Assembly: GCA_937888825.1 (NCBI GenBank)
Contig: CALBFE010000025.1
Coordinates: 1-50,659 of the forward strand
Reading direction: 5' to 3'
Length of the DNA: 50,659 bases
DNA from: an uncultured Actinomycetes bacterium
GTDB taxonomy: Bacteria; Actinomycetota; Actinomycetes; Nanopelagicales; Nanopelagicaceae
Position 1 is the first letter of the stretch. The number at the start of each line of letters is the position of its first letter. Below the pieces are notes generated by a model. The model made no database searches and had not been told where the DNA came from. It saw nothing but the letters and a program-made list of their open reading frames with translations. Both the position numbers and the translations under genes were made by a program. Below are positions 25,453 to 29,527 of the stretch, one piece after another.

Positions 25453-26597
25453 TGGAAAACTTATTTGATATTCCCAGCGAGTATAAGGATCTACGTGCCA
25501 GTGTTCGCGCTTTGGCCGAAAAAGAGATCGCACCTTATGCAAAAGCAGTCGATGAGGATCATCGCTTCCCACAAGAAGCAGCTGATGCACTTCAAAAGGC
25601 AGGTCTTGCTGCAGCACATGTTCCAACTGAATTCGGTGGCGATGGCGCAGATGCATTAGCTGTTGTAATTATTATTGAAGAAGTCGCACGAGTTTGTGGT
25701 GCTTCATCACTGATTCCTGCAGTTAATAAACTTGGTTCACTTCCCTTAATACTGGGCGGAAATAAAGATCAAAAGCAGCGCTGGTTGTCTCAATTAGCAC
25801 AAGGAAAAGGTTTTTCTTATTGCCTTTCAGAATCTGAGGCAGGTTCAGATGCTTCTGCACTTCGTACAAAAGTAGAGCAAGATGGTGATGGCTGGATTCT
25901 TAATGGAAGCAAAAAATGGATTTCAAATGCAGGGATCTCAGAGTTTTACACCGTCGTTGCCCAAAGTGACGCATCTCTTGGCTCTAAAGGAATAACGGCA
26001 TTTGTCGTTGAAAAATCTGATCCAGGCGTATCTTTTGGTTCACCAGAAAAGAAGATGGGTTTTAGAGGATCACCTACGCGTGAGGTTTATTTCGACAACG
26101 TAAAGCTTGCTGATGATCGCCGTATTAGTGAAGTTGGTGAAGGATTTGCGCTAGCAATGAACACTCTTGATCACACACGCATTACCATTGCTGCCCAAGC
26201 CTTAGGTATTGCCCAAGGCGCACTTGATGTTGCAACTCAGTATTCACATGAGCGTAAGCAGTTTGGTAAAGAGATTTTTGATTTCCAAGGTATTCAATTC
26301 ATGTTGGCAGATATGGCAATGAATATTGAAGCTGCCCGTCAATTAACTTATGTGGCTGCATCAAAGAGTGAGAGCGGTGAAAAGGATTTACGTTTCTTCT
26401 CAGCGGCAAGTAAGTGCTTTGCTAGTGATGTTGCAATGAAAGTGACAACTGATGCAGTTCAGATCTTGGGCGGATACGGCTATGTTTCAGATTACCCAGT
26501 TGAGCGAATGATGAGAGATGCCAAACTCACTCAAATTTATGAAGGAACTAATCAAATTCAACGAATAGTTATGGCGCGCAATCTACCTAACGCTTAA
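25452..26597 (+). CDS. Acyl-CoA dehydrogenase
   Basis: A 381-residue FAD flavoenzyme of the short/medium-chain acyl-CoA dehydrogenase family. Visible signatures: SYCLSESEAGSDASALRT, NGSKKWISNAG, the fingerprint QILGGYGYVSDYPVERMMRDAK, and the C-terminal IYEGTNQIQRIVMARNL whose glutamate is the catalytic base in short/medium-chain types. It removes hydrogens at C2-C3 of an acyl-CoA; chain length is not evident. The ATG shares one base with the upstream stop (TAATG). Its pairing with the CopC/CopD genes is not functionally obvious. The 3' end overlaps the opposite-strand cyclo-ligase gene by 11 bases. Confidence 0.95.
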   Translation: MENLFDIPSEYKDLRASVRALAEKEIAPYAKAVDEDHRFPQEAADALQKAGLAAAHVPTEFGGDGADALAVVIIIEEVARVCGASSLIPAVNKLGSLPLILGGNKDQKQRWLSQLAQGKGFSYCLSESEAGSDASALRTKVEQDGDGWILNGSKKWISNAGISEFYTVVAQSDASLGSKGITAFVVEKSDPGVSFGSPEKKMGFRGSPTREVYFDNVKLADDRRISEVGEGFALAMNTLDHTRITIAAQALGIAQGALDVATQYSHERKQFGKEIFDFQGIQFMLADMAMNIEAARQLTYVAASKSESGEKDLRFFSAASKCFASDVAMKVTTDAVQILGGYGYVSDYPVERMMRDAKLTQIYEGTNQIQRIVMARNLPNA

Positions 26598-27135
26598 ATC
26601 TGACAATCAGTGAAGGCGTTGCCGCAGCATCTAGGGCAATATCGTGGGATTCTCTAGGCAAAGTTTCACTCGTTAATTCACCTGCATGAACTAAACCAAG
26701 CTTCCATCCAGGCAGCGTTGGTAATGCGCGGTCATAAAAACCGCCGCCTTGTCCCATTCGATAACCCTCTTGGTCAATACGAAGTGCTGGAGTGATGACT
26801 GCGCCAACATCACTTGTGTCTGTTACAGCCGGACCAGTTGGTTCTGTCAGATTCTTAGTTACTTTCAATTTCGTTGGATCGCCATCCCACTGAACCCATT
26901 CAATGACTAAACCGTTAACTCGGGGCAGTAAGAGTTTTTTACCATCTGCCAAAAAAGCTTTGTTGATTTCATCTGTGCTGGGCTCCTGGGCATATGAAAA
27001 GTAAGAGCAGATTGTTGTGGCATTGAGGATCTCTGGGGCTTTCAAAATGATATTGAAATTGGTCGGAATGAATTTTTGAACCCGTTCACGGCGGTAGCGA
27101 TCTCGCAACTGCTTCTTAAGTGTGTTCTGATTCAT
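26587..27135 (-). CDS. 5-formyltetrahydrofolate cyclo-ligase
   Basis: A 182-residue enzyme converting 5-formyl-THF to 5,10-methenyl-THF with ATP. The C-terminal signature VITPALRIDQEGYRMGQGGGFYDRALP gives the family's substrate and ATP region. The N-terminal KKQLRDRYRRERVQKF is the usual basic start. The frame opens at 27171, but the ATG at 27135 with GGAGG 10 bases upstream gives the normal N-terminus. It diverges from the MoeA-like gene. In mycobacteria galU lies between this gene and moeA1 (from memory); here galU is absent. Confidence 0.93.
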   Translation of the reverse strand: MNQNTLKKQLRDRYRRERVQKFIPTNFNIILKAPEILNATTICSYFSYAQEPSTDEINKAFLADGKKLLLPRVNGLVIEWVQWDGDPTKLKVTKNLTEPTGPAVTDTSDVGAVITPALRIDQEGYRMGQGGGFYDRALPTLPGWKLGLVHAGELTSETLPRESHDIALDAAATPSLIVRFKR

Positions 27136-27191
27136 TGCTTCTGACCTCCGCTTTCCACGCCTAAATCCCAAAGATTACTGACCACAACAAG

Positions 27192-27203: not shown

Positions 27204-28115
27204 ATGGCAGAGCACACGCGGGTTGATGAGTTTTTGACTTCACTTTTAGCGATTTGCAAACCCCTTGATTCTTTTGAAATGCCTTTACTAGATGCCCATG
27301 GTGCAACGTTGTCGCAAGATGTCTTTGCTGGAGAGCGCTTGGTAATGAAAGCCGGATCTAGGATCCGCTCCACTCAAATTGGATTAGCAGCATCCATTGG
27401 ACTCGATCACTTACCCACCAGACCGCATCCACGTGTAGTGGTGATGTCAGCTGGCCCAGATCTAGTTGAACCTGGTAAAACGCTTAAAGATGATGAAGAG
27501 TTTGAGACTAACTCCTGGATGCTCACAACAGCTGTGCGCGAAGTAGGAGCGGTTGCTTATCGCGTGCACTCAATTCCAGAAGATGAAGCGCAGCTGCAGA
27601 ATTTGATTGAAGATCAATTAGTACGGGCTGATCTCATAATTATTAGCGGTGAGCGCCATGATGATTCATTTGATTTGATTACCCGCACTATTTCTAACAT
27701 GGGTGAAATTACGACCGTTGATATGGCAATAGAGATGAGCGGTCGACATAACTTCGGCCTTATTGGTCCAGATAAGACCCCAATCGTCACTCTTCCGGGT
27801 GATCCAATTGCGGCATATATCTCTTTTGAACTCTTCGTTCGTCCAATGATTCGCACAATGTTGGGCGCTGCAACCATTCACCGCCCTAGCGTTAAAGCTA
27901 AGTTGGAAAAGGCAATTGAATCCAGTGATGGAGTGCGCTCATACATTCGCGCAGCCCTTTCTGAAGATGGCAAGTCGGTAACACCGCTGGCCCATCAAGA
28001 AGAGATATCAACACTCTCAGATGCTTCAGCTTTTATTGCCGTTGGTGAAAAAGATATTAATTTAAAAGCTGGCGATGAAGTAACTGTTGTGATTTTAGAG
28101 CGTAGATACATTTAA
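27204..28115 (+). CDS. Reduced MoeA/gephyrin-like protein (Glp-like), catalytic domain missing
   Basis: A 303-residue relative of molybdopterin molybdotransferase MoeA (normally about 400). Residues 1-40 match the MoeA N-terminal helix region (FEMPLLDAHGATLSQDV). The sequence then jumps to what is MoeA residue ~165 onward: LVMKAGSRIRSTQIGLAASIG, PRVVVMSAGPDLVEPG, TLPGDPIAAYISFELFVRPMI and the C-terminal domain IV. The whole insert domain is absent, including the catalytic DNSAMDGYA motif. The nucleotide loop SSGGVSVG is replaced by ISGERHDDS, and PGKP is lost too. Molybdate insertion is therefore very unlikely. Together with rimJ and a SepX/GlpR-like gene it matches the corynebacterial Glp division protein locus. 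Confidence 0.8.
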   Translation: MAEHTRVDEFLTSLLAICKPLDSFEMPLLDAHGATLSQDVFAGERLVMKAGSRIRSTQIGLAASIGLDHLPTRPHPRVVVMSAGPDLVEPGKTLKDDEEFETNSWMLTTAVREVGAVAYRVHSIPEDEAQLQNLIEDQLVRADLIIISGERHDDSFDLITRTISNMGEITTVDMAIEMSGRHNFGLIGPDKTPIVTLPGDPIAAYISFELFVRPMIRTMLGAATIHRPSVKAKLEKAIESSDGVRSYIRAALSEDGKSVTPLAHQEEISTLSDASAFIAVGEKDINLKAGDEVTVVILERRYI

Positions 28116-28123
28116 GTAGTCTT

Positions 28124-28702
28124 ATGACGCATTCATGGCCGGTGGTACTTAAGAGTCAAGATCTATCGATGCAGGCATTGAGATTTAGAGATCGTGGACG
28201 TTGGAATAATGTCCGAGCCGAAAATCGTGACTGGTTATCTCCCTGGGAAGCCACAATTCCAATCATTGCTGGGGATGCTGCGCAGAACCCCGACCAGCTT
28301 CCTTCCTACTTTGAAATGGTTCGCACCCTTAACTCTGAGGCTCGAAATGGCCGCTCATTTTCATTTGCAATCTGGCATCAGCGCAATTTAATTGGACAGA
28401 TTTCACTGGGCGGCGTGATCCTTGGCGCAATGCGGGGCGGGCATATTGGTTATTGGATTGATAAAAACTATGCCAATAAGGGTTTTACAACGCAAGCGGT
28501 GATGGCCTTAACAGATTATTCATTTTCTGCGCTGAATCTTCATCGCGTTGAAATCAATATTAGGCCCGAGAACGCTGCATCAAGGCGAGTAGCTGAGAAA
28601 GCTGGCTATATTTTTGAAGGCGAACGTCCGCGCTATTTACATATCGCTGGTAGTTGGCAAGACCATGTCGTATTTGTTAAAGAAAATCCTGCCGTTAAGT
28701 AG
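28124..28702 (+). CDS. RimJ/RimL-type GNAT N-acetyltransferase
   Basis: A 192-residue GNAT protein. The acetyl-CoA region reads GHIGYWIDKNYANKGFTTQAVMALTDY, followed by NLHRVEINIRPENAASRRVAEKAGYIFEGERPRYLHIAG, which closely matches the RimJ branch. RimJ-like enzymes acetylate protein N-termini, in E. coli ribosomal protein S5, though actinobacterial members may have other targets. It starts 8 bases after the upstream stop. It is the middle gene of the MoeA/Glp-RimJ-SepX run, a conserved actinobacterial order. The symbol rimJ is withheld because the substrate is not proven. Confidence 0.88.
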   Translation: MTHSWPVVLKSQDLSMQALRFRDRGRWNNVRAENRDWLSPWEATIPIIAGDAAQNPDQLPSYFEMVRTLNSEARNGRSFSFAIWHQRNLIGQISLGGVILGAMRGGHIGYWIDKNYANKGFTTQAVMALTDYSFSALNLHRVEINIRPENAASRRVAEKAGYIFEGERPRYLHIAGSWQDHVVFVKENPAVK

Positions 28703-28750
28703 GCTCTAAATCCCAAGTTCTATAGGTCTCATCCTTTATCTTTATGCATC

Positions 28751-29527
28751 ATGGCTTCCGGACTTATCTATATTGCGATCATTGGTATGTGGGTCGCATA
28801 TTTTGCACCCCGTTGGATCCATGACCGCAATGAATTTTCTGGAAAATCTGTTGAGCGATTCAAGAGTGCACTGATTGTTGTTGCAAGTTCATCGCCACAA
28901 GGAATTTCTGGAAGCGGATCGATTCATATCGATTTAGATCGCGAAGCAAAAATTGCGCAACTTCTTATGCGCAGACGAATTATGTTTTTTGTTTTAACTG
29001 GTTCTCTAACTACAACACTTGTGGGTGGTTTCATGAATACGATGCCTTTTATTTACTCATTAGTTCCTGCAACTGGAATTTTGATTTATGTTGCAAGTGT
29101 TCGTCGCCAAACAATCGCTGACAAGATTCAATACCGACGTATTCAACAACTTCATCGTCGCACAGCTGGTGTATCAGCAACGAACTTAGCGGAAGTTGTC
29201 ACACCAAAGCCTTCACAAGAACATTGGATTCCACTTTCTGAGCGCGAACTCAAAGGCGTTGTTTTATTGCCTAAGGGAACAGCAGCTATTCGCCAAACGT
29301 GGGAACCATCAGAAGTGCCATCTCCAACATATGTCAGTGCACCGAAGGCAATTATTCCTAAGCGCGTTATTGATTTAACTATTCCTGGAGCATGGAGTGA
29401 AGAGCAAGAGCGTCTAGAACGTGAAGCATTAGCTGCTGCTTCACCTTCGCGTGATGAAATCTTTGATCAACAACTAGCTGATGAAGCAGTTGAACGCCTT
29501 AAGCAAGCACGCGCCTCTAACGAATAG
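28751..29527 (+). CDS. SepX/GlpR-like membrane protein (cell-division associated)
   Basis: A 258-residue protein with one N-terminal span (SGLIYIAIIGMWVAYFAPRWI) and two adjacent central spans (about residues 78-117), then a cytoplasmic basic helix and a long soluble tail. The features RWIHDRNEF, VERFKSAL, RRRIMFFVL, the TWEPSEVPSPTYVSAP segment and IDLTIPGAWS are those I associate with actinobacterial SepX (Streptomyces) and GlpR (Corynebacterium), which tether the division machinery and, for GlpR, bind the MoeA-like Glp. The operon partner MoeA-like protein supports this. Its TAG abuts the stop of the opposite-strand PMT gene with no gap. Confidence 0.75.
   Translation: MASGLIYIAIIGMWVAYFAPRWIHDRNEFSGKSVERFKSALIVVASSSPQGISGSGSIHIDLDREAKIAQLLMRRRIMFFVLTGSLTTTLVGGFMNTMPFIYSLVPATGILIYVASVRRQTIADKIQYRRIQQLHRRTAGVSATNLAEVVTPKPSQEHWIPLSERELKGVVLLPKGTAAIRQTWEPSEVPSPTYVSAPKAIIPKRVIDLTIPGAWSEEQERLEREALAAASPSRDEIFDQQLADEAVERLKQARASNE

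Follow-up and report, generated by a model that had tools for sequence, protein, structure and literature searches.

A domain-II-less Glp orthologue retained across Nanopelagicaceae, probably as a division-type scaffold

Almost all of Nanopelagicaceae, a family of very small freshwater bacteria, carry a Glp orthologue of which domains I, III, and IV are left and which was probably retained as a division-type scaffold. Gephyrin is a brain protein, and Glp is its division-linked relative. The copy that we describe lies in a stretch of 50,659 nucleotides (the window) from a genome of Candidatus Planktophila (Nanopelagicaceae). Its gene, which we call glp-deltaII (27204..28115, + strand), encodes a 303-residue MoeA/Glp protein without domain II, as judged from the open reading frame and from Pfam, NCBIfam, fold, and alignment matches.

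The frame starts with an ATG at 27204 and contains no internal stop, as the earlier note had said of this 303-residue MoeA homologue; starting instead from a GTG that lies two codons upstream, the protein would have 305 residues. Pfam matches to MoCF_biosynth (residues 97-217) and MoeA_C (residues 231-298) bore out the same note's view that the C-terminal gephyrin-like domain is kept, in that both domain III and domain IV were found, though domain IV is altered. The best NCBIfam match was Glp_gephyrin (NF045515) at 259.5 bits, which covers model positions 139-403 only and lies below the curated cut-off of 475 bits; MoeA_actino scored lower, at 188.8 bits. The closest solved structure was Corynebacterium glutamicum Glp (8bve), matched over its residues 148-415 plus an N-terminal segment.

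We aligned the protein with C. glutamicum Glp, full-length relatives, the MoeA of its own genome, and 29 truncated copies from 15 genera. C. glutamicum residues S40-Q150 were absent in all 29 truncated copies, so that the loss described earlier as about 120 residues stands, although its size is 111. Since domain II of C. glutamicum Glp comprises residues 46-145, inserted between the domain I halves 20-45 and 146-181 (PMC10522489), the inserted domain was cut out near its exit from domain I, with the frame and the remaining fold kept. In the window, the junction joins A42 (C. glutamicum 39) to G43 (C. glutamicum 151) at 27327..27332 (+), leaving C. glutamicum 40-150 without counterpart. By alignment to 8bve numbering, with borders taken from PMC10522489, the protein consists, in its own residue numbers, of an N-terminal segment of domain III (residues 1-22, 27204..27269, +), domain I with its two halves now contiguous (residues 23-73, 27270..27422, +), the main part of domain III with its MoCF fold (PF00994; residues 74-223, 27423..27872, +), and domain IV (MoeA_C, PF03454; residues 224-303, 27873..28112, +). 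The proline-rich hinge 2 reads PHPR at residues 74-77 (27423..27434, +), and its PxPR pattern is invariant in 29/29 truncated copies; hinge 1 has PL in 28/29, followed two residues on by P, A, or S. By these alignments, proline-rich hinges of the Glp type are present between domains I and III; the proline hinge sets Glp apart from MoeA.

The AlphaFold2 (AF2) model of the 303-residue protein had a mean pLDDT of 91.7 and a pTM of 0.90. Its top Foldseek matches by E-value were the C. glutamicum Glp structures with and without the FtsZ peptide (8bvf and 8bve, E about 2e-28). The monomer nevertheless scored a TMq of 0.87 to closed E. coli MoeA vs 0.84 to open Glp, and since the fit to the closed form is slightly better, the monomer model leaves an open Glp hinge or open dimer unproven.

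Neither of the insertase hallmarks of MoeA, the SAMDGYA-type motif and the GGVSxG loop, is found in the short protein. The DNSAMDGYA motif, whose disappearance had been reported earlier, falls inside the lost stretch; even Corynebacterium Glp has a degenerate counterpart (FAQAAIDGYA), and the full-length Nanopelagicaceae relatives have an intact one (DNSAMDGFA or DNSAMDGYG). The GGVSVG-type loop of the molybdopterin (MPT) site has indeed become GERHDD (residues 149-154, 27648..27665, +), at a position that reads GGVSxG in full-length relatives, and most truncated copies carry GE followed by polar or acidic residues where full-length members have GGVS[QK]G. The PGMPQG loop is lost as well, and LPGNP has changed to LPGDP in 26/29 truncated copies. 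In domains I, III, and IV, the short protein has the same fold as MoeA, both that of E. coli and the one encoded on contig C31 of its own genome; it differs from them in lacking domain II and the catalytic loops, and is about 23% identical to the MoeA of its own genome.

We counted molybdenum cofactor (Moco) genes by hand in 28 genomes that are at least 95% complete and encode the short protein. In 19 of these, MoaC, any other MoeA, and Mog were missing, and 18 of the 19 also gave no MoaA match; single-contig genomes among the 19 are G091, G118, G056, G101, G041, G058, G070, and G049. The other nine encode MoaA, MoaC, and a separate full-length MoeA (open frames of 384-401 aa). The window genome belongs to these nine; its contig C31 carries mobA-like, moeA, moaC, and mogA genes. 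The earlier note had counted an intact second MoeA with a complete cofactor pathway and molybdoenzymes against its reading: the second MoeA and cofactor genes were found in the window genome, while a search for two types of molybdoenzyme, the xanthine-dehydrogenase and sulfite-oxidase types, returned none there. Since many relatives with the short gene have neither MoeA nor MoaC, the second MoeA fits specialisation rather than refutation. As a separate observation, contigs C31 and C17 of this genome hold the cofactor genes plus a fragment of MoaA where a contig ends, alongside no molybdoenzyme of the two types searched.

Because the short gene is kept in genomes without Moco genes, it is retained for something other than Moco. 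The retained MoCF fold could suggest that the short protein still binds molybdopterin or a nucleotide, for instance as a Moco carrier or regulator, but its glycine-rich loop is now acidic, the PGMP loop is gone, LPGNP has become LPGDP, and the gene persists where MoaC, other MoeA, and nearly always MoaA are missing, so that we regard this as highly improbable. The sequence data thus strongly support the earlier statement that all enzymatic function has been shed: with domain II missing, the MPT loops changed, and neither MoaC nor another MoeA in 19/28 genomes, enzymatic function has almost certainly been lost.

The short form had been presented as a feature of one genome. Instead, queries with the short protein matched 97/101 genomes in a family sample and 194/201 in an order sample, in which all sampled genomes came from Nanopelagicaceae. 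Since copies of this form turn up throughout the family at no less than 42% identity, it is no chance find. The complete genome of a congener, P. versatilis MMS-IA-79 (NZ_CP016774), also carries the short glp. Outside the family, no short form was among the matches listed for 297 near-complete genomes of the class. Full-length proteins, in frames of 404-409 aa, were found in two genera only, g22 and g31. Maximum-likelihood analysis of the shared domains placed the truncated proteins in one clade with support of 100/100, and g22 and g31 outside this clade yet inside the family. The stem of the truncated clade measured 0.98 changes per site vs 0.33-0.38 for the full-length genera. Together, tree and alignment point to one ancient deletion and a burst of change, common to nearly the whole family. 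The most divergent short Glp proteins, with long branches and altered loops, are in G053 (g30; L068), G051 (g28; L077), and g25 (L072/L073), and would be useful for testing what is dispensable. We also noted that several Nanopelagicaceae-like drafts (L135, L142, L148, L158, L170, L181, L204, and L207) are publicly titled Bifidobacterium breve or Streptomyces griseus, names that look wrong.

The deletion might be taken for an assembly artefact, given that the window comes from a draft genome in 108 contigs. The identical junction is, however, shared by 15 genera and occurs in single-contig genomes too, which rules this reading out and leaves it a negligible probability. That the short gene is a decaying remnant could likewise be argued from its broken frame in three genomes; these are all drafts, though, and the breaks are single-base shifts, each different and unshared, which are most simply read as sequence errors. 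Decay in close relatives had been named earlier as a finding that would speak against a function, and none was seen: the gene is intact in complete genomes, and its dN/dS of about 0.03 rules out a pseudogene, making decay very improbable. By the Nei-Gojobori method, the median pairwise dN/dS of glp was 0.029, a rough value given 21 usable pairs, vs 0.060 for rimJ, 0.079 for glpR, and 0.076 for the 5-formyltetrahydrofolate cyclo-ligase (5-FCL) gene; rsmI gave 0.048 and acyl-CoA dehydrogenase 0.025. The short glp is kept by strong purifying selection. Within it, domain I (0.015) is the most constrained part apart from 12 N-terminal residues, and domain IV (0.044) the least.

In the window, glp-deltaII is flanked by a divergent 5-FCL gene (26587..27171, - strand), identified by Pfam and NCBIfam matches and by synteny as a conserved flank of the locus, and is followed by genes for a RimJ-like GNAT acetyltransferase (28124..28702, +; Pfam and NCBIfam matches) and a SepX/GlpR-like membrane protein (28751..29527, +). 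The adjacency glp-rimJ-glpR, a Glp trait, was seen in every truncated genus examined. NCBIfam SepX_GlpR_2 (NF050099) matched the membrane protein at 86 bits, under the 150-bit cut-off, and hydropathy, alignment, and AF2 predict helices at residues 3-29, 58-94, and 100-140, followed by a disordered tail (141-258) in which a W-P..VP.PTY motif is conserved. The AF2 model, with its three membrane-type helices, thus agrees with the earlier description of a three-span SepX/GlpR-type protein two genes on. GlpR and SepX likewise combine three membrane helices with a disordered tail (PMC10522489, PMC8748795). The window protein resembles Streptomyces SepX and Corynebacterium GlpR in its three predicted membrane helices, its predicted disordered cytoplasmic parts, and its position adjoining rimJ and glp; it differs in its score and in a first cytoplasmic region of only about 30-50 residues.

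The full-length genera indicate what the locus may have looked like before the deletion. Their Glp proteins have orthologous loci and sister sequences to the short form, from which they differ in keeping domain II and intact catalytic motifs, and they pass the Glp cut-off (507 bits in g22, 543 bits in g31). In g22, the operon order is galU-glp-moaC-mog-rimJ-glpR, and the full-length Glp is the sole MoeA; besides Mog, the only other MoCF-domain protein is CinA. A candidate second MoeA in g22, a large PF00994 protein on contig C34, proved to be this CinA and was rejected. The g22 genomes also contain MoaA and MoaC together with xanthine-dehydrogenase-type and sulfite-oxidase-type molybdoenzymes. 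Because its motifs are intact and it is the only MoeA in genomes with MoaA, MoaC, and molybdoenzymes, the g22 Glp is very probably a working molybdenum insertase as well as a Glp orthologue, and the short form is the one that really lost insertase function. Families f6 and f7 are similar, with glp followed by moaC and mog, the further MoCF protein in f7 being CinA. Full-length Glp with MoeA motifs followed by moaC and mog was seen at L064 (4009-8435, g22), L067 (g31, with moaC at a contig edge), and G029/G030; in these MoaA/MoaC genomes it is apparently the only MoeA, which makes it a candidate moonlighting Glp. Such single-MoeA genomes run counter to the published generalisation of two copies.

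In truncated genera, moaC and mog are missing from the glp locus. galU lies between the 5-FCL gene and glp in g22, g31, g26, and g29, and is absent from the window between 27171 and 27204. Among truncated genera, g26 and g29 keep it there (L074 4080-4973, L078 4062-4973), and it is gone in the others checked; since g26 and g29 are truncated, domain II was deleted before galU disappeared from the locus.

In C. glutamicum, a hairpin in domain IV of Glp binds FtsZ and GlpR (PMC10522489). Its counterpart in the window protein (residues 250-261, 27951..27986, +) is shortened, and the site as defined in that study is altered throughout the truncated copies: Tyr369 is absent and Met361 replaced, mostly by polar residues, while the hydrophobic Leu360 is kept. 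Other full-length Glp proteins do not conserve Met361 either. The short Glp thus lacks the Met361 and Tyr369 signature of the FtsZ-binding loop. The FtsZ tail, on the other hand, is conserved: it reads DEIDVPDFMK in the window genome and is of the DELDVPDFLK type in g22 and g31, compared with DDLDVPSFLQ in C. glutamicum (PMC10522489). FtsZ ends in PDFLK in g22, g31, g26, g29, and two of three outgroups. The remaining truncated genera have PDFMK, or in one case PDFMR, a change that is possibly compensatory in a partner-binding tail.

Since the hairpin is shorter, Tyr369 lost, and Met361 mostly polar, direct contact of the short Glp with FtsZ is uncertain, and we consider its persistence and its loss evenly balanced. 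A scaffold role with GlpR is probable, because the conserved linkage and strong purifying selection support retention for a function shared with GlpR. The earlier interpretation accordingly holds for the enzymatic loss and for retention in a function shared with GlpR, and goes too far where it made the protein only an FtsZ-membrane adaptor, given that the FtsZ-contact tyrosine is lost. Compared with C. glutamicum Glp (Cgl0883; 8bve, 8bvf; NF045515), the short form has domains I, III, and IV, the proline hinge between domains I and III, the rimJ and glpR locus, and a conserved FtsZ tail encoded in the same genome; it differs by the missing domain II, where Glp has four domains, by its shorter hairpin without Tyr369, and by its score below the family cut-off. 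Because it fails on these three family traits, the protein should be called a domain-II-less Glp variant, a Glp orthologue by tree and locus rather than a standard Glp.

Further findings count against a division-site scaffold: constraint is lowest in domain IV, through which Corynebacterium Glp binds, and the conservation of new residues in the former pocket could indicate a different partner. The short Glp might thus have left division, with the old substrate pocket of domain III binding a new ligand or partner and the glpR linkage merely inherited. This would fit the stem branch of 0.98 vs 0.33-0.38 changes per site, the lost FtsZ-contact tyrosine, and the residues fixed at catalytic sites, namely E at C. 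glutamicum 258 (21/29), D at 261 (22/29), S at 263 (27/29), H at 290 (25/29), and D at 308 (26/29). We nevertheless consider it unlikely, since glpR is adjacent in every truncated genus examined, the hinge and domain I, which are Glp hallmarks, are the most conserved parts, and the FtsZ tail is conserved. Somewhat less doubtful, though still tentative, is an intermediate possibility in which the old MPT pocket (E150, D153, S155, H182, D200) became an acidic/histidine surface for a new ligand or divisome partner with GlpR tethering kept.

For the favoured history of a reduced Glp kept as a division-type scaffold, we propose that the family ancestor had a full-length Glp, as g22 and g31 still do, and that it was apparently the cell's only MoeA and lay in a galU-glp-moaC-mog-rimJ-glpR operon like that of g22. 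After these genera split off, one deletion removed domain II and the MPT loops were rewritten, as alignment and tree show; moaC and mog are missing from the locus in the truncated genera, the order of losses being a reconstruction. What is left of the protein, with domain I and the Glp hinge as its best conserved parts, is kept by purifying selection beside glpR even without a Moco pathway. It probably acts at the division site as a dimeric scaffold without enzymatic activity, where dimerisation, septal location, and binding are all putative, with the GlpR-like protein tethering it to the membrane and the conserved FtsZ tail probably touched. Such a protein can no longer insert molybdenum, and gephyrin-like filaments built through domain II (SDII) are likewise beyond it.

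MoeA, Glp, and gephyrin share four highly similar domains (PMC11733289). Gephyrin filaments assemble through SDII; when it is deleted, filaments, phase separation, and synaptic and receptor clustering are abolished while receptor binding remains (PMC12441120). The short Glp lacks the same domain as the engineered gephyrin E domain deltaSDII (PMC12441120); unlike that construct, it is natural, bacterial, and without a G domain, and whereas gephyrin-deltaSDII makes no clusters, the short Glp is retained by selection. In the open-access literature searched, we found no published description of a domain-II-less Glp and no paper joining MoeA, SepX, and Glp; searches for Nanopelagicales with FtsZ or molybdenum returned only papers that seem unrelated, judging by title and abstract.

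The short Glp is thus a natural counterpart of gephyrin-deltaSDII, in which the lost domain is the one needed for molybdenum insertion by MoeA and for gephyrin filaments. If the g22 and g31 Glp doubles as an insertase, it would be a bacterial moonlighting enzyme, and with the short form would make a before-and-after pair for testing the separation of functions; strains in culture, with their genomes completed, are available. The short Glp must do its work, whatever that is, without domain-II filaments, and almost a whole family has kept the scaffold without domain II for a long evolutionary time. If it still works at the septum, domain-II filaments would be unneeded for the bacterial Glp role, and nature would have set its minimal core.
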